DNA of 51,529 nucleotides from an uncultured Bacteroidales bacterium. GTDB taxonomy: Bacteria > Bacteroidota > Bacteroidia > Bacteroidales > UBA932. The notes under the pieces are model-generated. The model ran no database searches. It had not been told where the DNA came from and saw only the letters and a list, made by a program, of their open reading frames with translations. Position numbers and translations under genes: made by a program. The stretch covers positions 1 to 51,529 of the forward strand of contig CALUQB010000020.1 of the NCBI GenBank assembly GCA_944322815.1, written 5' to 3'. Positions 5,216-48,065 of the stretch are shown in pieces (the first letter of the stretch is position 1; each line of letters starts with the position of its first letter).

Positions 5216-7408
5216 ATGAAGTTTCAGATAATATCAGACTATAAACCAGCCGGCGACCAGCCGCAGGCCATAAAGGAAATATGCTCGGCATTGAACAGCG
5301 GAATAGATGCCGTGACGTTGCTGGGAGTGACTGGGTCAGGAAAAACATTTACTATGGCGAATGTCATAGAAAGGCTGCAGAGACCTGCGCTGATCTTGAG
5401 TCATAACAAGACTTTGGCTGCACAGCTGTATGGTGAATTCAAATCGTTTTTCCCGAACAACGCGGTGGAATATTTCGTGTCGTATTATGATTATTATCAG
5501 CCGGAAGCATATATTCCCACGACGGATACGTATATAGAAAAAGATCTGAGTATAAACGATGAAATCGAAAAGCTGAGACTCAGTGCCGCTTCATCTTTGC
5601 TGTCTGGAAGACGGGATGTGGTGGTCATATCCAGTGTGTCATGCCTGTATGGAATAGGCAATCCTGAAGATTTCCATGCACAAACCGTTACAATAAAAAA
5701 AGGAGAAATGCGGAATATGACCAGATTCCTGTACCAGCTGGTGGATGCCTTGTATTCCAGGACGGAAGCGGAATTCAAGCGTGGTTCTTTCAGGGTCAGG
5801 GGAGATACGGTCGACGTATGTCTGGGAAACGGGGACAATGCGGTCAGGATCGAGTTTTTCGGTGATGAAGTGGACAATATTTCCCTTATTGACCCGGTCA
5901 CCGGGGCATTTCTGGACACATTGGACGAAGTCTCCATATATCCGGCGAACAATTTCGTGACGACCCGTGAGAGGAGTATAAAGGCGGTCAGCCAGATTCA
6001 GGATGATCTGGTGAAACAATGCGCGTATTTCGAAAGCGTGGACAAACCTTTGGAAGCCAAAAGACTGAAACAGAGGGTGGAATATGATCTGGAAATGATC
6101 AAGGAAATGGGATATTGTCCCGGAATCGAGAACTATTCGAGGTATTTCGACGGCAGGGCGGAAGGACAGAGGCCATTCTGTCTGATAGACTATTTCCCGA
6201 AGGATTTCATCACGTTCATAGATGAAAGCCACGTCACTCTCCCGCAGATCAGGGCGATGTACGGCGGAGACCACTCCAGAAAGAGCGTGCTGGTGGAATA
6301 CGGGTTCAGGCTTCCTGCCGCATCGGACAACCGGCCGCTGAAATTCGAGGAATTCGAAGCCATCACCGGCCAGATGGTGTATGTCAGCGCCACTCCTGGA
6401 GACTATGAACTCGAAAAGTCCGGCGGCCTGGTAGTGGAACAGGTTGTTCGTCCTACCGGGCTGCTCGATCCTCCCATCCAGGTCCGTCCGACGGAAAATC
6501 AGGTGGATGACCTGCTGGAAGAAATCCGTAAACGGGCCGAAAAGGACGAGAGAGTACTCGTGACGACACTTACGAAGCGTATGGCCGAAGAGCTGGAGAA
6601 ATATTTCACACGTATGGGAGTCAGATGCCGCTATATCCATTCGGATGTGGACACGCTGGAGAGGGTGGAAATCATAGAGGATTTCAAGAACGGACTTTTC
6701 GACGTTCTGGTAGGCGTGAACCTGCTTCGTGAAGGTCTTGACATCCCTACCGTATCCCTGGTGGCCATCCTGGATGCGGACAAGGAAGGTTTTCTGAGAT
6801 CAGGCCGCTCCCTCACTCAGACTGCAGGCCGTGCAGCCAGAAACGTGAACGGTCTCGTGATAATGTACGCGGATACCATCACAGGGTCCATGCAGGAAAC
6901 TATATACGAGACAGACAGGAGACGCAGCAAGCAGATGGAATACAACAAGAAGCACGGCATCACACCTACACAGGTAGGGCTGAAAAAGAATGTCCTGGCA
7001 GAAGGTGTCCCCGGCGGGGACAATGCCGCCAAGCGCCACAATCCGCGTCTCGCCAACACGGTATCGGGAAAGGTCAGCGCCGCCAATTCATACGATGACC
7101 CTCATTATATACCGGATCCTACCGACCTGGGCAGCGGTTATGTATCCGTCGGACTGGGGCACGACTCCAAACGCGAAACGAATTCAGCCTATACCGACGG
7201 CTACATCCGCGCTGATCTGGCTGCAGTACTTCAGGACCCTGTCATACGGTCCATGACCAGAGACCAAGTCGGGAAGGCTGTCCAGACAGCCAAAAAGAAC
7301 ATGCAGAAAGCCGCAACCGACCTGGATTTCATGGCTGCGGCCAAATACAGGGACGAGATGTGGGCGCTGCAGGAATATCTCAAAGTCTGGACATCGGCGG
7401 CAAAATAA
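5216..7408 (+). CDS. uvrB: UvrABC system protein B (excinuclease helicase subunit)
   Basis: UvrB is the DNA-binding helicase-like subunit of nucleotide excision repair: it receives damaged DNA from UvrA and recruits UvrC. Walker A is GVTGSGKT (residues 37-44). The damage-probing beta-hairpin region [15 protein letters not shown] follows near residue 90. Helicase motifs [15 protein letters not shown] and [14 protein letters not shown] are intact, and a UVR domain (about residues 690-725) closes the protein. At 730 residues it is somewhat longer than usual (about 670-690); the excess is a linker around residues 610-680 before the UVR domain. The ATG at 5216 gives the canonical start [16 protein letters not shown]. 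It appears intact and functional. Confidence 0.97.
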
Positions 7409-36503: not shown

Positions 36504-38198
36504 TTACCATCCCGGATTCTGCGGAGCCAGATTAGCATTCTTGAAAAGTTCCGACTGCGGCACCGGATAGAGGTTCATTTTGTCATTCCAGGTTCTGGAC
36601 TCATACAGGAAACGCTTGTATGAATAATTGCTTCCTGATTCCCGGGTGATTTCCACACCGTATATGTCGGTCTGGGTCTCATCCCCTATCATCCATCTGC
36701 GGACATCCCAGAAACGATGGTCTTCGAAAGCGAATTCCACACGCCATTCGTTCCGCAAAGCCTCGATGAATTCATCCTTTCCGGTCACAGTCACATCCGG
36801 CATGCCTGCATTCGCCCTCACCTGGTTCAATGCCCAGGCTGCCGAATATGGAAATTCAGCATCAGTATACGTCGGACTGCCGAAAGCCTCTATCATGGAT
36901 TCCGCGTATGCCAGCAAGGTTTCCGCATAGCGGTACACTATCCAGTGATGCTTGTTGGTTACAGGTGAATCGGGGTCGAAGCTTGTGCTTTCCTGAACAT
37001 ACTTGCGCAGAAAATATCCTGTCGGAGACCCTCCTTCAGACACGGACAGGTCATCTCTGCCACCCTTATAAAGTGCTATGACAGAACCTTTGAACGAATC
37101 ACCGTTGCACAAGACCGTCCTTGTAAAACGCGGGTCGCGGTTCAGATACGGACGTGCCGGATTGAACTCAGGGTCATCACTCACCCATCCCGAAGCCTCC
37201 AGCGTGACAGGATATCCGTTGACTGTCTGGAAAGCATCCACGAGATTCTGAGTCGGATATGTGCCCATGACAGCATTGGAACCGTATTTCATGCCTTCGG
37301 TAAAACGGATAGGGAAATTGTACAGCTCAAACGTAGTGGAGACATCGTTCTGACGGGCAAGCACTACTTCGGGAGAAAGAGGGTTGTTGCACTTGTCTGC
37401 CGGATCCAGCGAATACAGTCCGGACTCTATTATGTCCAGGGCAGCCTCGGCCGACCTCTTCCATTTCGCCGCATCCATCGAAGGATTATGCAGCCTGCTG
37501 GCCGCATAAAGAAGGGCCTTTGATTTCAGAGCCATGGCGAAGCCGCGTGTAATCCTGCCTGTCTCACTGTTCGCCACTCCGGTATATGAATCCGGAAGTT
37601 CCGGAGCGCATGCATCACACTCCGCGACAATGTATTCTATCACATCATTGAAATCCGTTTTCGAAATGCTGTTCGCCTCTTCTATATCCAGTTTCGTCAG
37701 AGGCATGGCTATGTCACCGTATCTTTTGGCAAGTTCGAAGAAGAAAAACACCCTCAGCACTCTGGCCTCATACTGGAAATACTGCATCTGGTCGAGCCAG
37801 TTCTGATAGTCAGGGTCTTTCTCGAAACGGGAGAAATCCGTTTCGGCGAAAGACTGCATGAATTCGTTGGCAGCCCTGATGCCGTAATACAGGCTCCATG
37901 CATCATCTACTGTATTCAGCGCAGACCAGCTGCCGTTGTTCATGTACTGTACCACTCCTCCGGTATCTCCGAACTCCGCATCGTCCGATGCACAGTCACG
38001 CATAGCTCCGCCTATCGCCCCGAAATCCTGAGGGATATAGGAATAGACATGAGTCAGCATCTGTTTGGTCTCGTCGAAATAGGAATAGACTCCGTCATAG
38101 TCCCGCAGGCCGTTCGTCTCGTCGAATTCGAGATAGCCGCAGGAAACGGCAGAGACAGCCGCCAGAATCACCGATATTGTCTTGAAAATTGTCTTCAT
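36504..38198 (-). CDS. SusD/RagB-family nutrient-binding lipoprotein (pair 1)
   Basis: This 564-residue SusD-like protein caps its SusC partner and binds the glycan at the cell surface. It has a lipobox (SAVSC, Cys20), TPR-like helices in the first half and the typical C-terminal signatures RNEWRVEFAFEDHRFWDVRRW and the closing LAPQNPGW. It follows its SusC by 13 bases. The two SusD proteins in this locus are clearly different in sequence, so they probably handle different oligosaccharides or lengths. Confidence 0.94.
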   Translation of the reverse strand: MKTIFKTISVILAAVSAVSCGYLEFDETNGLRDYDGVYSYFDETKQMLTHVYSYIPQDFGAIGGAMRDCASDDAEFGDTGGVVQYMNNGSWSALNTVDDAWSLYYGIRAANEFMQSFAETDFSRFEKDPDYQNWLDQMQYFQYEARVLRVFFFFELAKRYGDIAMPLTKLDIEEANSISKTDFNDVIEYIVAECDACAPELPDSYTGVANSETGRITRGFAMALKSKALLYAASRLHNPSMDAAKWKRSAEAALDIIESGLYSLDPADKCNNPLSPEVVLARQNDVSTTFELYNFPIRFTEGMKYGSNAVMGTYPTQNLVDAFQTVNGYPVTLEASGWVSDDPEFNPARPYLNRDPRFTRTVLCNGDSFKGSVIALYKGGRDDLSVSEGGSPTGYFLRKYVQESTSFDPDSPVTNKHHWIVYRYAETLLAYAESMIEAFGSPTYTDAEFPYSAAWALNQVRANAGMPDVTVTGKDEFIEALRNEWRVEFAFEDHRFWDVRRWMIGDETQTDIYGVEITRESGSNYSYKRFLYESRTWNDKMNLYPVPQSELFKNANLAPQNPGW

Positions 38199-38211
38199 AT
38201 TATCTCTACCG

Positions 38212-40986
38212 TTAAAAATTGAACTTGAGTCCCACGTAGTACGATCTCAGAGCCGGATAAACCCTGCCGAGCTGCTCCGGATCGAAGATTTTCAGATTGT
38301 CTATACTGAAAAGATCGGTTCCCTGAACATACACCTGCATGTCAGCGAATTTTATCATGCTCTTCGGAAAAGTATAGGCCAATGTCAGGTTTCTCAGCTT
38401 CAGGAATGAGCCGTCCCTGAGCCAAAGCGAATTGTTCTGATAGTTGTTCTCATTGTCCAGCGTGGTCAGGCGCGGAATCGTGGCGGATCCGGAAGTCTCC
38501 GGAGTCCATGGAGTCTCATGCTCCAGCAATGTCCTGGAGATAGTTCTGTTGGATATCAGCGGGGTGTAAAGGGATGAATTCAGAACATGTACAGTCAGGC
38601 CTGTCATCCCCTGGAAATCAGCCGATATCTCGAAACCTTTCCAGCCGAAATTCACGCCGAAGCCGAAATACAGAGCCGGCACTGTGGAATGGTACATCTT
38701 GACGTAATCATACTCATCGATGAGATTGTCACCGTTCTGGTCCTTGTATTTCAAATCGCCCGGACGCACCTGCGAGAATGTCTGGACAGGACTGTTGTTT
38801 ATCTCCATCTGATTCCGGAATATTCCGACCACTTCCAGCCCGTAGCATTGTCCGACAGGATTTCCCTTGTGGTAGAGGTAATCATACGGCTGGTAAGCCT
38901 GATTGTCGTTCACGACCTCCGTGGAAAGAAAGGCGCCGTTCGCGTAAACCCCGTAAGAGAAATCATTTATCCTGTCCTTCCAGGACAATGAGGCATCCAC
39001 TCCGCGATATTTGTAAATGCCTGCGCACTGTTGTGCGACATCGATGCCGATGACACCCGAGACATTCGTGGATGCCACGAGGATGTTGCTCCTTTCTTCG
39101 AAGAAACCTTGGGCGTACAGGTTCAGCCTGTTCCCGAAAGCCCGGAACTCTGTTCCGAAGGTCACTTTTCTCAGTTTCTCCGGCTGCAGGTCTTCCACCG
39201 GAAGAGTACTTTCCTTCATTCCGTAGAAATGACTGGCATTGTCCGTAAAATAATATGAATTGCCGCCTATATACGACTGCCTGAACAGGTCGTGGGAAAG
39301 GTTTCCGTCCCATCCGGAACGTCCGCATGATGCGAAGACCTTGAACAGGTCTATCCACCGTGCATTTTTCATGAAGTCCTCTCCGGAGACGATCCAGGCT
39401 GCATTTACTGCAGGATAGAACCTCATGGCATTTCCAGGTTCGAGGTATGCCGAACCTGACCAGTCGGTGACTATGCCTGCGGAATACCTGCCGTCATAGG
39501 TATAGGATGCCGTGAGCAGGGCTGACAGCCATTTGTTGGAGACATTCTGCCCGTTCGCCACGTAGGACTGCATATCATAGATCGCAGCCGCGGAAACGGC
39601 ATGCTTGCCGAATGTACGGGCATAGTCTACCTTCGCCTGGAAATCCATCCTCATGTCTATGGAGTAGAAACCGTTTGAATGTCCGAGAGCACGGGAATTG
39701 GTGCCGACTATCTCCGGTGATGTGATGACTGTGCCGTCTTCCGACATGGAGACATTCGAGTCTTCGTAAGCGAAGTTCTTGGACGTCTCGTCATACATTC
39801 TGCCGGTATCTTCGAAAGATATCAGAAGTTCGGCTCCGAGTCCTTCAGTCAGGACATCGAGATCCTGTCTCAGAGACATGTTCGCCACGACAGTACCAGT
39901 GGTGAAACGGTAGTTTCCCGTGTCTGCAAGCTGGGCGACATGGTTCAGTGAAGTATAGATATCCGTGCCTCCGTACACTCCGTCATCCTGTCTTATCGGG
40001 AAGGCGGCAGACGGTATCGAATAGAGATTGTTGATGACATTGGACGCACCTCTGGCCCTGTTGTATTCGCCCAGTTTTCCCATGATGCCGAGTTTCAGAT
40101 GTGTGGTGCGGGTCACTTCCACATCGAAATTCGATCTGATGCTCAGGCGCACGTCGGACGGCATGGTGGAATAACGCGAATCCGTGTTGAGATTCCTGAA
40201 CAGGCCGATATCGTACATGTAGTCCACCACGGAATAATAACGGAATTTTTCCGTGCCGCCTTCGAATGTGAGACCCAGACGATAGTTCGATGTATAATCC
40301 TTGTAGACTTCATTCCACCAGTCCACGTCAGGATACTCGGTCGGATACTGTCCGGTACGGAAAGCTTCCAGCTCGAAGTCATTGTACTTCGGAGAAAGTC
40401 CGTCAAGGGCCAATGCCTGATTCAGCGAGGTTGCATAAGTGTAGGCGTCCGCGAATTCCGGCGAACGGAACTGCGAATTGATGCCGTACTGGAAATCCGC
40501 CCCTACGCGCAGTTTTCCCGGAGTAGCCCTGCGTGTGGTGACGAGAACCACTCCGTTTCCTCCGCGCATTCCGTACATTGCCGCGGCAGCGGCATCAGTA
40601 AGTACTGTCACGGACTCTATTTCCGTGGCGGTAATGTCTCTCAGACTTCCTCTCGGAAAACCGTCCACAAGGATGAGCGGAGTCCTGCCGTGAATGGACA
40701 GGGACGAAAGGTTGTCATACGTTGTTCCGGAACCCTGGTAAACGTTCAGCCCGGCGATCTGCCCGTACAGGGCCTTGGCTGCATCGATGTTCGGAGCTTT
40801 CTCGAAAACGCTGCGGCCGACACCACGGTGTACGAAAGCACTGCTCCTGTCCAGGACTTCGATACCATAGCCGAGACTGATGGTATCCAGGCCGCTCTCT
40901 ATGGCCAAAGTGTCCCTCTGGCCGGCAAAAGCCGAAACCGCCGCGGTAAATGATACAAGTGTGATATAGATTTTTTTCATATTCAT
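38212..40986 (-). CDS. Short SusC/RagA TonB-dependent outer-membrane transporter (pair 1)
   Basis: This 924-residue SusC-like barrel imports oligosaccharides with energy from TonB. After the signal peptide (VSFTAAVSAFAG) it goes almost at once to the SLGYG segment and the plug (AKALYGQIAGLNVYQGSG; ITATEIESVTVLTDAAAAAMYGMRGGNGVVLVTTRR). It therefore lacks the N-terminal carboxypeptidase-regulatory-like beta-sandwich that most SusC proteins carry, as well as any STN domain. The barrel ends AYTFPKSMIKFADMQVYVQGTDLF and YVGLKFNF, so it is complete. It sits between two susD genes; spacing pairs it with the one 13 bases downstream. MKK, two codons in, is an alternative start. Confidence 0.92.
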   Translation of the reverse strand: MNMKKIYITLVSFTAAVSAFAGQRDTLAIESGLDTISLGYGIEVLDRSSAFVHRGVGRSVFEKAPNIDAAKALYGQIAGLNVYQGSGTTYDNLSSLSIHGRTPLILVDGFPRGSLRDITATEIESVTVLTDAAAAAMYGMRGGNGVVLVTTRRATPGKLRVGADFQYGINSQFRSPEFADAYTYATSLNQALALDGLSPKYNDFELEAFRTGQYPTEYPDVDWWNEVYKDYTSNYRLGLTFEGGTEKFRYYSVVDYMYDIGLFRNLNTDSRYSTMPSDVRLSIRSNFDVEVTRTTHLKLGIMGKLGEYNRARGASNVINNLYSIPSAAFPIRQDDGVYGGTDIYTSLNHVAQLADTGNYRFTTGTVVANMSLRQDLDVLTEGLGAELLISFEDTGRMYDETSKNFAYEDSNVSMSEDGTVITSPEIVGTNSRALGHSNGFYSIDMRMDFQAKVDYARTFGKHAVSAAAIYDMQSYVANGQNVSNKWLSALLTASYTYDGRYSAGIVTDWSGSAYLEPGNAMRFYPAVNAAWIVSGEDFMKNARWIDLFKVFASCGRSGWDGNLSHDLFRQSYIGGNSYYFTDNASHFYGMKESTLPVEDLQPEKLRKVTFGTEFRAFGNRLNLYAQGFFEERSNILVASTNVSGVIGIDVAQQCAGIYKYRGVDASLSWKDRINDFSYGVYANGAFLSTEVVNDNQAYQPYDYLYHKGNPVGQCYGLEVVGIFRNQMEINNSPVQTFSQVRPGDLKYKDQNGDNLIDEYDYVKMYHSTVPALYFGFGVNFGWKGFEISADFQGMTGLTVHVLNSSLYTPLISNRTISRTLLEHETPWTPETSGSATIPRLTTLDNENNYQNNSLWLRDGSFLKLRNLTLAYTFPKSMIKFADMQVYVQGTDLFSIDNLKIFDPEQLGRVYPALRSYYVGLKFNF

Positions 40987-41004: not shown

Positions 41005-42798
41005 CTACCAGCCCGGATTCTGGACTATGCCATAGCCCTTGTCCACTTCGGTCTGCGGGAATGCGGCCAGATACCATTTGGTATCCCAGTTAATCGCCCA
41101 GTTTCTGGAAGCGAGTTCCGTTACCGTGAAGGTGAAAGACTCGGGATCGGTAAGTGTTCCGCCCACACCCGTGGCCTGCAGTCCGTAAAGTTTTTTCGTG
41201 AAATCCTGCGAGCGACCCCATCTGACGAGGTCGAACCATCTCACTTCCTCATATCCGAGCTCAAGCGCCCTTTCTTTTATCAGGGCTTCACGGAATTCCT
41301 CCTGAGACAGTCCCTGTGGTATTTCAGGCAGCCCCACACGTGCCCTGACATCATTGATCATCTTGTATGCTGTGGCATCAGGGCCTCCGTTGTATTCATT
41401 GATCGCTTCCGCATAGCTCAGCATCACTTCAGGCAGTCTGAGGTACGGCCACTGTATCGGTTTGCCTGCACGGTCGCTGTCCTGATTGAGAACGAATTTC
41501 ATCTGGAGGAATCCTGTACCGACAGTATAATTCGGATGGTTCGTGTAAACCGGGGCTACCGAACCGTCTCTCCATGTATCTCCGGGTACGGCGCATGTTT
41601 CATAAAGCCGCGGTTCACGGGTTGGTGTACCGTCCGCTTCGAAGAACGGCTGGCGTGGAGGATTCTCCCAGTCGAAATTCTCATCGAAGTCCGTACCGTC
41701 ATCCCATGCGAACATGTTCACGTAGTTCAGAGTCGGACCTGAATAGCGGACTTCCGTCAGAAACTGCTCCAGGCAGGAAACGTCATAGCCTCTCCGTGTC
41801 GAAATGAGGACTTCCGTACCTCCGCGGTCATAATAGGCTGACCGGAAAGCCGCCCTGTAGCCTTTGTGTGTCTTCTCCGTCGCCTGCGTAAGCTGGTATT
41901 TCCCGTTGGCATTCAGTTCATCGAAAAATTCCTTTCCGGCATCCATGGCTCTTTTCCACCTTTCCGCATCATAGTTTCCGTAGCAGGTATAAGCGTCAGC
42001 CTGAGGATGCCATGGTGTCGCGGAGTTGAAAGTAGGGCTTGCTGCCCAGAGAAGAATGCGGAGTTTCAGACCCAGCGCTCCGGCCTTGGTCATTCTGCCG
42101 TTTTCCGTCCCGTCATTCTTCCAGTTCAGATACGGTGCAGCCTCATCCAGAAGCTGGACGATATAGTCCACAGTTTCTGCGAATGTGGCGCGAGGAAAAT
42201 ACATCTCTTCATTCGGATCCACCGAATGCTTGATGAGAGGGACACCGCCCATATACCTGAGAAGTTCCGAATAGGCTATGGCTATGACCATCTTGGCTTC
42301 TGCCACTTTCCGCTGTCTGCTCATAGACGAAAGATCAGGAATCCGTTCGGCATTCTCGATGTAGATCCATGCATAACGTATGGCGCGGTATTCGTTTTCG
42401 TCCCCGAATCTGTAGGCTTCCGTTCCGCGATAGTCCGAGCCGATATTGCTCCCGTACGTACCGTTGTAGTAGAGGTTGACCGGACCGTCGCTCGGATTGT
42501 TCCTGCGGCTGTGGTTCAGGTCGGAAATGGACTCGAGCACGTTGATGCCGAGCTTGTCGTATTCCTTGCCGTCATAACGGTCCTTCAGATACACCGGCAA
42601 ACCGTACGGCAGATAAGAGTATGCCTTGACCAGCACCTTCTCGGCATTGACTGACGAACTGAACAGCGTGTCCAGTGTTGCCCCGGAGCTTTCCGGATGC
42701 TCTCCGAGAAAAGCGTCTCCGAAACGCAGGTCATAGCATGAGACCTGCAGCAGCATGGCTGCCGCCAAAGCTGTAATTATAGATAAGTAGCGTTTCAT
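41005..42798 (-). CDS. SusD/RagB-family nutrient-binding lipoprotein (pair 2)
   Basis: This 597-residue SusD-like lipoprotein has Cys21 in MLLQVSC. It shows the family's features: helical first half (AEAKMVIAIAYSELLRYMGGVPLI), RPYLRLPEVMLSYAEAINEYNG-type repeat (here WPYLRLPEVMLSYAEAINEY), and the closing KERALELGYEEVRWFDLVRWGR with QNPGW at the end. It follows the STN-type SusC by nine bases and should be its surface lid. If the upstream SusC is out of frame, this protein would have no partner unless the short SusC substitutes. Confidence 0.94.
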   Translation of the reverse strand: MKRYLSIITALAAAMLLQVSCYDLRFGDAFLGEHPESSGATLDTLFSSSVNAEKVLVKAYSYLPYGLPVYLKDRYDGKEYDKLGINVLESISDLNHSRRNNPSDGPVNLYYNGTYGSNIGSDYRGTEAYRFGDENEYRAIRYAWIYIENAERIPDLSSMSRQRKVAEAKMVIAIAYSELLRYMGGVPLIKHSVDPNEEMYFPRATFAETVDYIVQLLDEAAPYLNWKNDGTENGRMTKAGALGLKLRILLWAASPTFNSATPWHPQADAYTCYGNYDAERWKRAMDAGKEFFDELNANGKYQLTQATEKTHKGYRAAFRSAYYDRGGTEVLISTRRGYDVSCLEQFLTEVRYSGPTLNYVNMFAWDDGTDFDENFDWENPPRQPFFEADGTPTREPRLYETCAVPGDTWRDGSVAPVYTNHPNYTVGTGFLQMKFVLNQDSDRAGKPIQWPYLRLPEVMLSYAEAINEYNGGPDATAYKMINDVRARVGLPEIPQGLSQEEFREALIKERALELGYEEVRWFDLVRWGRSQDFTKKLYGLQATGVGGTLTDPESFTFTVTELASRNWAINWDTKWYLAAFPQTEVDKGYGIVQNPGW

Positions 42799-42807
42799 TG
42801 TGACTTT

Positions 42808-45800
42808 TTAGAATGTTAGGTTCAGCCCGAGACTGTATATCTTGACGAGAGGATATGCACCGTTCCTGTCAGTAAGCGACTCGGGGTCGATAAAGTCGAG
42901 ACCTGTGAATGTCAGCAGGTTATATCCTGAAAAAGAAATATTCAGAGACTTCACTCCCACGGCTTTCAGCCATCCTTTCCCGGGGAAAGTATAGCCGAAG
43001 GTGACGGTCTTGAGACGGAGATACGAAGCATCTCTGAGCCATAGCGTCGAAGGTTCCGAATTCCAGACTTCTGAAGTCTCCGCTGCACGCGGCAGGGTGC
43101 CGTCCTGGTTTTCCACTGTCCAGCCGTCTTCGTAGAAATACTCGAGAAGGCCGCGGCCTCCGGCGTTCGTATACGGGATTCTGTATTCGAGGTCCATAAG
43201 CTTGTTCACGTTCGTGGCTCCTGTCCACTGCATGGAGAAATTGAAACCCTTGAAATTGAAGCCTGCGTTCAGACCGAAGACATATTCAGGAATAGTGGAG
43301 TAGCCCGTGACCATCTTGTCATCTCCGTTCACTATCCCGTCACCGCTGATATCCTCATACATGGCGTCTCCCGGATAAACTTGCGAACTCGGCTGGGGAA
43401 GTTCAGGATTCAGTATCAGGCTGCCGTCCGGTCCTTCCGTGAAATCGCTGTACTGGTAGAGACGGACGAATTTGTACAGTCCGGTGTATCTGCCCACCGA
43501 TCCGCCTGTCTGGTTCTGCCACGGGAATTCGCTTTCGATTTCATCCATATAGATGATCTTGTTCCTGGCGAAAGACACATTGGCCGTGGCAAAGTATTCG
43601 AAACCGCCTTTTGTCTTGTCGCGCCATCCCAGTGAGACTTCGTAACCATGATTGTTCACCTCTCCTATATTCAGTGACGGAAGTGTCATTGATATGATAG
43701 ACGGAGTGTTGTTCGGCTTCAGGAGAATACCGGAACGATGTTCGAAGAAAAGATCGAGATTCAGCGAAAGCCGGCTACGCAGGAATTCGGCATCGATTCC
43801 GTAATTCTGCTTGACAGCCGTTTCCCAGGTCACACCGTCATTTCCGGCCACTCCTTCCCCGTAGGCTTCGGCCATATTCGGATTCGTTTCACCGAAACTG
43901 TACCCTCCGTTGGACACCCATACAGTGGGCATGTACATGAAACGCGTACTTCCGAGGTCATTGCCGACCTTTCCGAGTGAGGCGCGGAGTTTCAGATAGC
44001 TTATGAAATTCTGCGTTTCCATGAAGGGCTCCTCGCTGATGACCCAGCCGACAGACCCTGACGGGAAGGCACCGTAACGTGTCTTGCCGGGAGCGAAGTT
44101 CTCCGAGCCGTTATATCCGATACTGAAATCGGCGAGATACTTGCCTTTGTAGTTATAAGTGGCCCTGCCGACAAAGCCGACATAACTGTGAGGGATATAC
44201 TGGTATGTACTTGTCTCTCCGGTACTGTATCTCGGATAATAGTCGCGGGACTGGTTGTAGAGGAACATGGCGGAGACCTTGTGTTGTCCTTTCGGCCCGA
44301 ACGACCTGTCCCAGTTCAGCTTCCCTTCGATGTACCAGTTCCTGTCGCGCTCGTTCTCCTCCTCATATCTCAGGACATCGTCCTTGCTTTCCGGGACCAG
44401 CACTATGGTCTTGTCATAGTCCGGGTCAGTCATCGGCTTGGAGGGGTCATCGTAAAATGAAGCATAATATATCCTGTTGTACTCGTTCGACCAGGAATGT
44501 CTTTTCTTGTGAGTGTTGAAACTGTTGTCATATGCACCCTTGAGGGTAAGGGAAAGGCCGTCGGTGATGAAATCCAGACGCTGGTTGATCTCGACATCGA
44601 TATTCAGTGTCGTATTGTAGTACTGTTCATATCCGTAGCCGAAAAAGGTGAAGTAACCGTCCCTGTTCAGCTCTATCCCTGTAGGGACTGATTCCGTCGG
44701 GACAAGTGTCCTCTTGCCGTCTATCAGGCCGGGACTCACCAGCGGGACCGTCCAGATCGTGACTGCATTCCACTCGGAACCGTCTGTCTTGACAGACAGC
44801 GGAGCCTGCTGCTTGCCTACATAACCACCTATATTGAACTTCATGGTAGTGCTCGGAGAAAGGCTGAAATCGAGGTTAGCGCGGTAGTTGTAACGGTTGT
44901 AATTGTAGTTGTTGTTATATGGAATGCTCTCGACCTGCTTCAGCACTCCGTTCTGATACAGATAGCCCATCGAAACGAAATAACGCGCGTTCTTGCCTCC
45001 TCCGGAGATGTTGATATTGTTCTTCGTCTGGACGAAGACATCATTGAACACCTCTTTTTTCCAGTTCATGTTCGGATAGAAAAGAGGGTCGGAACCGGTC
45101 CTGTACGCCTCCAGGGCATAGTCTGTAAAATACTTTCTGGCATCAGTCTCCCCATCGTTCTGCATTTTCATGTTCCAGTAGCGGGCGTATTCATAGCTGC
45201 CGACCTGCGACACCATGGTAGAAGGCTGCTGGAGACCGGTATTCGTGCTCACGGAGATGGAAGGTCTTCCCTCCTGGCCTCTCTTCGTAGTGATGAGGAT
45301 GACTCCGTTCGCTCCCCTGACGCCGAAGACAGCCGTAGAAGCCGCATCCTTAAGTATGGAGAAATTTTCTATTTCATTAGGATCTATCTGGGAGAAGTCA
45401 CGCTCCACGCCATCGACCAGAACAAGAGGCTTCGAAGCGGAACTGCTGAGGGAGCCGACACCTCGGATATATATGTCCGCAGCATCTTCTCCAGGCTGAC
45501 CGGTAGTCTGGACAGTAGCCACGCCCGGAACCGAACCGGCCAGCACATTAGTGATACTCGACACAGGAGGCTTGATGAGTTCCTTCGTATCCACTACGGC
45601 CAGAGAACCGGTAATGGTAGCCTTTGTCTGGGTTCCGTAGCCTATGACCACCACGTCATCCAGCTTCAGCATATCGTCTTCCATGGTGACATTCCGTATG
45701 TTTCCCGAAGACGCAGGGAACTCCACTTCCCGGAAACCGAGACAGGAAAACAAAAGCACGGCATCAGCACTGGTAACTTTCATTGACCAGTTTCCGTCCA

Positions 45801-46271
45801 GGTCGGTAGAAACTCCGTTCCTCGTCCCTTTTTCGAGAATGAAGGCCCCTACTATGGGATTCCCGTACGAATCCCTGACCTGTCCGCCTACAAGATTTCC
45901 GGCAGATTTCTCAGGTGACGGACTTTCCTCCGTCTTCGTTCCGGACTTCTGCCAGATCACCACTTGTCTGTTCCGTACCGAATAGTCTGCATCAGGACCA
46001 AGAATACGGTCCAGGACAGTATTTATACTGACATTCGTCAATGATACCGTCACTTTCCGTTTCAGATCCACCGCATCATTCCTGAAGACAAAACGATATC
46101 CGTATCCGTCTTCGATCTGTTCCAGAACTTCGCCCAAAGGCTTGTCCTGAACATGCAGTGTTATACTGTTACCCCCCCCTGAGCGAAAACCAGAGGCGAA
46201 GCCAGCAGCATTACCGCAGCGAAGATCCACTTTGCAAGTCTTCGACTGCCACTCAAAGATTCATTGATCAT
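42808..46271 (-). CDS. STN-domain SusC TonB-dependent transducer, out of frame at a G8 tract
   Basis: From 46271 the minus strand encodes a classic signal peptide (MINESLSGSRRLAK, then WIFAAVMLLASPLVFA|Q). Just after the cleavage point a run of eight G (46172-46179) shifts the frame, and translation stops after 36 codons. The remaining frame is intact to the end and holds an STN domain (SITLHVQDKPLGEVLEQIEDGYGYRFVF), a carboxypeptidase-regulatory-like domain, the plug with VVIGYGTQTKATITGS, and the barrel ending GLNLTF. One extra G or two fewer would give a 1154-residue (or 1153) protein. The STN domain and the adjacent fecR mark it as a signalling transducer. The alternative start MDLRCG at 46230 gives no signal peptide, so is unlikely. 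Confidence 0.9.
46172..46179 (-). repeat. Homopolymeric G8 tract in the SusC transducer gene
   Basis: Eight consecutive G on the minus strand at the junction of signal peptide and mature protein. As sequenced, the two flanking frames do not match; a change of +1 or -2 joins them. Such tracts are prone to slippage, both in cells and in sequencing. Confidence 0.85.
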
Positions 46272-46297
46272 ATATGGTTAATAATTAGTGTTATCTT

Positions 46298-46312
46298 CCG
46301 GATTCAGTCCGG
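46298..46312 (-). promoter_or_regulatory. Small hairpin between fecR and the SusC transducer gene
   Basis: CCGGA (46298-46302) and TCCGG (46308-46312) form a 5-bp stem with a 5-base loop in the 68-base gap, about 27 bases before the SusC start. It could be an attenuator or an RNA-processing site; no housekeeping promoter box is visible in this gap. Confidence 0.35.
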
Positions 46313-46339
46313 CCATGCGGTTCTTTAGGATTCCATGGT

Positions 46340-47278
46340 TCAGTCCTCGGCCAGCACCGTAATCCTTTTTCCTCCGTCTCCGTATTCATACTTCACGGGA
46401 ACCAGAAGGGCTATGTTTCCGAGAGCCGTTTCCAGACCGTCATTCACCATGAATTTTCCGCTCACCTTTACATCTTTCAGGCATTCATCAGGAAAGACTA
46501 TCTCCACCCTGAAATAGTGCTCGAGCTTCGTGAATATCTCCGATACAGGCGTGGACTTCAACAGCACATAGCCTTCCGTCCACGATGTATATTCTGCCAC
46601 ATCCACTTCCCTGAGAGAGGTTTCCCCGCTCGCGGCATTGTATCCGAACAGCTGGTCTGGATGCATGGTCACACATGTGCCGCCGTCTGCAGGCCTGGCC
46701 TCGACCTGTCCTTCCACCAGGACCACGGTCTGGTTTTCATCATAGGCCGTGACATTGAACTCTGTTCCCAGAACTTTCACCTCCATTCCGGATGTGGTGA
46801 CCACAAAAGGCATGTCCGGATTCTTCGCCACATCGAAATATGCTTCGCCATGAAGATTCACCCGCCTTTCCGTCCCGTTCCCGGCAATGACTTCGAGTCT
46901 GGAGCCGGAATTGAGCCTGATTTGTGTCCCGTCGTTCAGCACGGTCATCGTCTGATGTCCTACCGGAGCTTCCAGAGTGGCTACCGCCAATGTCTGCGGC
47001 TCTTCATCGTTCATGAACCCGAAGAACCATACCCCTGCCGCCACTGCCGCCGCCACTGCCGCAGATGCTATCCACCTCACAATATGGATACTCCTTTTCC
47101 TCTTTCCGGCCGCATCATCGCAGTCCGAAAGCAGCAACACTTCGTAAATCCTGCGCAATGTCTCCAGTTCTGTCCTGTTTTCTTCACTGCACCTGGCCCA
47201 ATTCATGACTTCGAGACGTTCGTCCAATGTCGCATCACCTCTCAGATATTTCAATAAAAGCTGGAAATTTCCTTTCAT
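46340..47278 (-). CDS. FecR-family anti-sigma factor
   Basis: This 312-residue inner-membrane protein holds the ECF sigma factor inactive until the STN domain of the SusC transducer signals. It has a cytoplasmic N-terminal part (DUF4880-like, about 1-75), one membrane helix (IASAAVAAAVAAGVWFFGF), the FecR domain (EAPVGHQTMTVLNDGTQIRLN; NLHGEAYFDVAKNPDMPFVV) and a C-terminal DUF4974 domain. It lies 138 bases after the sigma factor gene. The start at 47278 is chosen because MKGNFQLLLKYL opens the family-typical helix and follows a candidate promoter motif. Confidence 0.94.
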   Translation of the reverse strand: MKGNFQLLLKYLRGDATLDERLEVMNWARCSEENRTELETLRRIYEVLLLSDCDDAAGKRKRSIHIVRWIASAAVAAAVAAGVWFFGFMNDEEPQTLAVATLEAPVGHQTMTVLNDGTQIRLNSGSRLEVIAGNGTERRVNLHGEAYFDVAKNPDMPFVVTTSGMEVKVLGTEFNVTAYDENQTVVLVEGQVEARPADGGTCVTMHPDQLFGYNAASGETSLREVDVAEYTSWTEGYVLLKSTPVSEIFTKLEHYFRVEIVFPDECLKDVKVSGKFMVNDGLETALGNIALLVPVKYEYGDGGKRITVLAED

Positions 47279-47310
47279 AACCGTTCGCGATTTGGCATAA
47301 AACAATAATA

Positions 47311-47416: not shown

Positions 47417-47989
47417 CTATATGCCCAGCAATATGCCGACAAGCGGAAGATAATCTTTCAAAGACACTCTCAATGCCTTGAGAGCCTTCGTCATATGATA
47501 TTCGACGGCTTTCTCGGTGATGCCGAGCTCCGATGCTATCTCCCTGTTGCTCAATCCCTGGAATCTGCTCAGACTGAATATCCTGTCGGTTTTCTTGCCC
47601 AAAGTCTTCAAGGTGGAATTCAGGATTTTCTGCACATCACCCGCGAACAAGGTATGCGGATCACATGACTGGAGACTGTCGATCCTGAACTGGAGTTCAT
47701 CCTGAATCGAAGAACTCATTTCTCCCTGGACACGCATTCTGACACTTTCATGTCTGAGATATTGGAGAGCCTTGTTCCTTATGACTGAAAAAAGGAAAGG
47801 AAGTACCATTTCTATTTCCTCACCGGAAGCCTTCCGCTCCCAGTATACGGACATGGCTTCGGCAGCCAGCGACTCCGCCGTATGACTGTCGAAGACATAT
47901 GATTTCGCGAAAAGAATGCACCTGCGGTAATATCGTGACCAGTTGTCTTCAAAATCAACGTTTTCCTTTTTTCTCCCTCCTGACATCAT
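47417..47989 (-). CDS. ECF RNA polymerase sigma factor
   Basis: This 190-residue extracytoplasmic-function sigma factor has region 2 (YYRRCILFAKSYVFDSHTAE and FLFSVIRNKALQYLRH) and region 4 with a helix-turn-helix (FQGLSNREIASELGITEKAVEYHMTKAL). The Bacteroidota ECF/FecR/SusC arrangement identifies it as the regulator of this locus. The frame is open up to 48049, but the start at 47989 (MMSGGRKK) is preferred: it gives the usual 17-residue lead into region 2 and follows a -7 box at 48010-48017 that would lie inside a longer version. Confidence 0.9.
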   Translation of the reverse strand: MMSGGRKKENVDFEDNWSRYYRRCILFAKSYVFDSHTAESLAAEAMSVYWERKASGEEIEMVLPFLFSVIRNKALQYLRHESVRMRVQGEMSSSIQDELQFRIDSLQSCDPHTLFAGDVQKILNSTLKTLGKKTDRIFSLSRFQGLSNREIASELGITEKAVEYHMTKALKALRVSLKDYLPLVGILLGI

Positions 47990-48009
47990 AATCTGCGATT
48001 TCAGCCGCA

Positions 48010-48017
48010 CAAACTTA
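48010..48017 (-). promoter_or_regulatory. Bacteroidota -7 box for the ECF sigma gene
   Basis: The minus strand reads TAAGTTTG, an exact TAnnTTTG match, with transcription expected near 48003. No TTG at -33 was found. Together with the box at 48066-48073 it makes this a divergent promoter region. Confidence 0.45.
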
Positions 48018-48065
48018 ATAAGTTTTTTCATATTTTCCACCAGCTGCATTGTCGAAATTTTTTGT

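Follow-up and report, generated by a model that had tools for sequence, protein, structure and literature searches.

The transducer gene and its G tract

The window, i.e. the whole stretch of 51,529 nucleotides analysed here (contig CALUQB010000020.1, from an uncultured Bacteroidales bacterium), carries on its minus strand a gene for a SusC-type TonB-dependent transducer that is split, in the assembly, at a run of eight G. On this strand the sequence reads ...TTTTCGCTCA, then G8, then TAACAGTATAA; the run lies at 46172–46179, at the junction between the signal peptide and the STN domain. The short frame (46161–46271, minus strand) begins with the ATG at 46271 and reads MINESLSGSRRLAKWIFAAVMLLASPLVFA-QGGVTV-stop, i.e. 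36 codons for a 30-residue signal peptide, judged by eye, followed by QGGVTV. The STN frame is open over 1140 codons from a GTG at 46230, out of frame with the signal peptide. The mature transducer covers 1120 codons of it (42808–46170, minus strand) and comprises STN, CarboxypepD_reg, Plug and barrel, a reading based on Pfam and on the ratio of non-synonymous to synonymous substitution rates (dN/dS, see below): STN, Plug, the barrel and CarbopepD_reg_2 (PF13715) score above the Pfam cut-offs, and PF13620 below. The first-pass annotation, made from the sequence alone, had described this split after the export signal, and a re-reading of the sequence agrees with it on the 36 and 1140 codons; of its 31-residue signal ending in VFA, the VFA end stands and the length does not, VFA closing residue 30.

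The gene order on the minus strand is sigma–FecR–receptor–SusD. The FecR-type anti-sigma gene (46340–47305, minus strand) matches the Pfam families FecR and FecR_C, and the SusD-type partner (41005–42798, minus strand) matches SusD_RagB. The sigma-70 family gene (47417–48049, minus strand) is matched by Sigma70_r4_2, thus in region 4 alone, with no match for region 2 at E 1e-4; its size and its FecR neighbour suggest a sigma factor of the extracytoplasmic function (ECF) type. The Pfam domains thus bear out the earlier description of an STN/plug/barrel transducer lying beside FecR and sigma genes.

Conservation and variability of the tract

The search for related loci gave 53 relatives, seven of which (L031–L037) share 84–94% protein identity with the transducer of the window. 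All seven are draft or metagenome assemblies of Bacteroidales, one of them named Candidatus Cryptobacteroides intestinipullorum, and identical DNA occurs in genomes assigned to the genus of the window. A G tract at the same point in close homologues had been proposed as a check of the idea of a switch: the run is present at the same codon in all eight alleles (the window and L031–L037), and its lengths, which are taken from draft or metagenome consensus and compare species, not cells of one species, range from 8 to 11 (8 in the window, 11 in L031, 8 in L032, 10 in L033, 9 in L034, 10 in L035, 9 in L036 and 9 in L037). The export signal is in frame with STN in four of these alleles (L033, L035, L036 and L037); in the window assembly, as in L031, L032 and L034, it is not. 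The existence of the tract, its place and its conservation are independent of any wrong single length.

The barrel frame is open over 1118–1120 codons in all eight alleles. The synonymous divergence (dS) between the window and the other seven is 0.67–1.8, with dN/dS values of 0.049–0.071 over the seven window pairs and of 0.049 for the pair formed with L031, where both alleles are split. Judging from these substitutions, strong purifying selection acts on the barrel frame, even where the two alleles compared are both split, as is expected if split alleles often return to the joined state.

An orthologue search in 400 genomes of the genus returned among its best 30 loci the same seven species plus one new relative at 75% identity, and no further tract-bearing orthologue. 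A DNA pattern associating the signal end and the tract, which needs 9 G and which the window itself is therefore unable to match, was also run on 151 genomes of the genus. Matches were found in five of them, and the reversed control pattern gave one match; three of the five are not in receptors (L170–L172), so that this pattern is a poor census, one is a known orthologue (L174, from the species of L033) and one is a new distant receptor. The latter (L173, in the distant species G029) displays the same anatomy at another receptor, with joined frames. In L044, a relative at 75% identity, a G8 run is found elsewhere (L044:5787-5794), in the gap that separates the end of FecR (stop at 5562) from the start of the receptor; it may be a switch of the promoter type at this locus.

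In four further tract-bearing families, too, some copies are joined and others split. The L126-type receptor is split in the window's own genome (G000), G062 and G063 and joined in G061, i.e. in one genome of four. For the L117-type receptor, whose tract lies in the CarboxypepD domain and whose membership was assigned by N-terminal sequence, four of the five tract-bearing copies are joined (G000, G063, G066 and G067) and the one of G061 is split; G063 also has a second copy, L183, without any run. A NAGPA lipoprotein and a LacI regulator, with orthologies judged from sequence by eye, are joined in G000 and split in G067, and the remainder of the split LacI gene is readable in another frame.

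Long G runs in the genome and in the lineage

Within the 51.5 kb of the window we counted ten G/C runs of five, none of six or seven and a single one of eight, which is the junction tract. The 90.7 kb surrounding the seven closest orthologues give the same picture: 26 runs of five, none of six or seven, and seven longer runs that are the junction tracts. Runs of 6–7 are thus missing from 142 kb of DNA where junction runs reach 8–11. At the scale of the own genome, there are 27 G/C tracts (nine G8, fifteen G9 and three G10); they account for 102 of the 165 six-base G/C windows, which leaves only 63 for all runs of 6–7. The long tracts are therefore not the tail of ordinary run lengths. This genome has 21 G9 windows, against a median of 4 in 36 same-genus relatives. 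Among these, G018 (1.5 Mb) has the highest number, 54, and may be richer in long G tracts; among 24 order-level relatives, G051 has 27 G9 windows, most of them from one long run. As both exceed G000, the excess is lineage-dependent, not unique.

We examined 86 tracts: the 27 of G000 (window included), all 18 of G067, 26 of the 27 of G062 (the 27th being L032) and, for part of G065, 15 tracts in 14 stretches. Sixty-eight lie inside an open frame of at least 150 codons, 54 of these in the G sense, though some frames may be spurious. Fifty of the 67 tract frames outside the window were compared with Pfam, six of them without a match. The others include TonB-dependent receptors, two-component propeller sensors (L119, L133, L192, L228, L229 and L233), sigma factors (L199, L227 and L234), regulators of the LacI (L138 and L190) and AraC (L135) types, glycoside hydrolases 2 and 88 (L123 and L235), MFS transporters (L118 and L207), NAGPA lipoproteins (L122 and L188) and BACON proteins (L196 and L231).

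Complete tract lists are available for three genomes, where TonB-dependent receptors hold 21 of the 72 tracts (6/27 in G000, 7/18 in G067 and 8/27 in G062). For G000 this is to be compared with a receptor share of roughly 4.4% of the genome, assuming 37 receptors of 3.2 kb (binomial P 0.001). A clear signal peptide is found in a different frame in eight of the 21 receptors (the window, L126, L132, L203, L032, L212, L224 and L225); two more are likely split (L194 and L208), and eleven are in frame.

A few other runs can be mentioned. The propeller-type sensors listed above repeatedly have G8–G9 runs in frame. The sigma-factor gene L227 (G062:C140) is split inside region 4 at a G14, the rest of region 4 being in another frame, and L202 (G067:C160), encoding a DUF6377 protein, looks split at a G8, its upstream residues being in one frame and the rest in another. 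Three non-coding G8–G10 runs of the own genome (L129:4043-4050, L131:4090-4098 and L134:255-264) share the preceding 12 bases, CGTTGTTAGTCC; they form a dispersed repeat, near contig ends in two of the three cases.

A probable contingency locus, its rivals and its precedents

We propose, with a probability of roughly 0.84, that the window locus is of the contingency (phase-variable) type and that this lineage has many such poly-G switches; most likely the locus belongs to a poly-G repertoire, not described so far, that makes carbohydrate-uptake genes switchable in a Candidatus Cryptobacteroides lineage. The switch put forward by the first-pass annotation appears, from the comparison of sequences, well supported: the tract is conserved, its length varies, both phases are represented, the gene is not decaying and the long runs stand apart from the ordinary ones. 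The G run between the signal peptide and STN would gain or lose bases through replication slippage, and one length class in three would join the export signal to the transducer. The other lengths would yield a peptide of 36 residues or similarly short, and the receptor would not be exported. In FecA-type systems the STN domain signals in the periplasm via FecR to a sigma factor. As STN should signal here via FecR to the adjacent upstream sigma factor, a split allele should silence both the import and the induction of the locus. The slippage rate, the reversibility within a clone, the loss of export and the effect on the regulon are what we infer from this scheme. A broader view, towards which we lean with clearly less confidence, is that a poly-G phasome would extend to all that this lineage uses to sense and take up carbohydrates, with an independent slippage switch in each of the receptors, propeller sensors, sigma factors, repressors and glycosidases, so that one population would hold many combinations of diet and phage-receptor states, and at sigma/FecR loci one base would set import and induction.

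Several observations weigh against the switch. The varying lengths, as indicated, come from consensus sequences of different species. The junction tract is missing in two relatives at 75% identity (L044 and L254), and no G/C run of at least 6 was found near the start of 22 readable, more distant receptors that have no STN match; the tract is thus restricted to a small clade. Both genomes with a close copy of the L132-type receptor have it split, with no joined form among them, and the long runs of three G000 receptors (L116, L117 and L136) are in frame, which is also what fixed residues would give. Besides, MutS and MutL are present in the genome, which leaves a repair defect unsupported as the cause of instability.

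The rival that survives best, although we consider it improbable, is that the tract is real but its length miscalled in this assembly, the gene being in frame in the cells without any switching. Certainly long G runs are error-prone, and all eight alleles are draft or metagenome sequence; moreover the purifying selection seen on split alleles is equally expected from a length error, so that the low dN/dS does not separate switching from assembly error. On the other hand, an error cannot give eight species a tract at one and the same codon, nor produce a separate population of long runs, and split copies turn up in several assemblies, five gene families having them beside joined ones.

Somewhat less probable still is slippage during transcription or translation at the tract, which would supply some full-length receptor whatever the length, and let lengths drift almost freely. 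It would account for a purifying selection that persists while the assembled frame is split, and slippage of homopolymer transcripts is described for Buchnera in the available part of PMC2831843. That case, however, concerns poly-A, and the runs reported here lie in many unrelated genes.

It is very unlikely that the run is kept for a glycine linker, or for the DNA or RNA itself, with no role in switching. Joined orthologues do have Gly-Gly-Gly after the signal cleavage site, but four of the eight alleles are out of frame, and none of the seven close orthologues has the three glycines in mixed codons. Elsewhere in the receptor glycine is coded freely: GGG makes up 11% of the glycine codons in the receptor alleles, and of the 92 glycine columns common to the eight proteins none is GGG in all eight, only three keeping a single codon. 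As the run is nevertheless found in all eight alleles, the protein alone does not explain it.

A decaying pseudogene broken by a chance frameshift, which the split of the assembled frame might evoke, is rejected on the dN/dS: this ratio and the 1118–1120 open codons, reported above, are not those of a decaying gene, and the break falls at a conserved tract. An invertible promoter was also discarded: the search for inverted repeats in 46100–46600 found no separate flanking pair, just one short overlapping palindrome, recombinase genes not being sought.

Gut Bacteroidales switch surface genes by DNA inversion, and Nakayama-Imaohji, cited in PMC11868660, reportedly described in 2009 an invertase-driven phase variation of SusC/SusD in Bacteroides fragilis. 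The window locus resembles this case by the protein family, the bacterial order and the on-off character; it differs in that a homopolymer would replace the inversion of DNA by a site-specific invertase. The closest counterparts for the tract are the haemoglobin receptors HmbR and HpuAB of Neisseria meningitidis, which undergo poly-G phase variation (PMC3786947) and are TonB-dependent (PMC3352162), according to the available parts of these papers. As here, they serve TonB-dependent outer-membrane uptake and have the poly-G tract inside the reading frame (hmbR, hpuA). They belong however to another phylum and take up haem iron, and the parts of the texts at hand mention neither STN, nor FecR, nor a sigma factor; in the window the tract is at the signal-peptide end of a SusC-type transducer accompanied by FecR, sigma and SusD genes.

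More generally, poly-G slippage figures as a cause of switching in other bacteria in what is available of PMC3786947 and PMC11868660, and a passage of PMC3090145 considers whether slippage might underlie the variation of capsule genes in B. fragilis. Orsi et al. 2010 (PMC2831843) treat homopolymeric tracts at the 5' ends of genes as a switching device; the junction tract is likewise near the gene start, and the word Bacteroid does not occur in the text of that paper. The simple sequence repeat (SSR) phasomes of Campylobacter and Neisseria are presented, in the accessible portions of PMC6321876 and PMC5953494, as genome-wide sets of genes made switchable by repeats, whereas the set described here belongs to a lineage of gut Bacteroidales and includes TonB-dependent receptors, propeller sensors, sigma factors, LacI/AraC regulators and glycosidases. 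Three elements are already known: switching by homopolymers, switching of a TonB-dependent receptor by poly-G, and switching of SusC/SusD by inversion. In the open-licence literature nothing was found that pairs Cryptobacteroides with phase variation or slipped-strand events with polysaccharide utilization loci, and among the papers listed by the other searches, titles and abstract beginnings hold no report of homopolymer switching of SusC or of polysaccharide-utilisation genes. Within this same literature we thus found no precedent for a poly-G repertoire in the polysaccharide-uptake and sensing genes of gut Bacteroidales, with a tract where the signal peptide joins a transducer coupled to sigma and FecR.

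Such a homopolymer repertoire, if real, would offer a second route to diversity within a population, independent of DNA inversion and missed by any search for inverted repeats. SusC, sigma and regulator genes that appear split in metagenome assemblies of this kind might then be switch states and not errors or pseudogenes.

The cluster of the window finally comprises a second receptor and a second SusD (36504–40986, minus strand), with a Plug match in 38212–40986 and a SusD_RagB match in 36504–38198. This second receptor has a Plug match only, without a CarboxypepD domain, and relatives likewise have shorter receptors near the long ones, e.g. in G003:C24.
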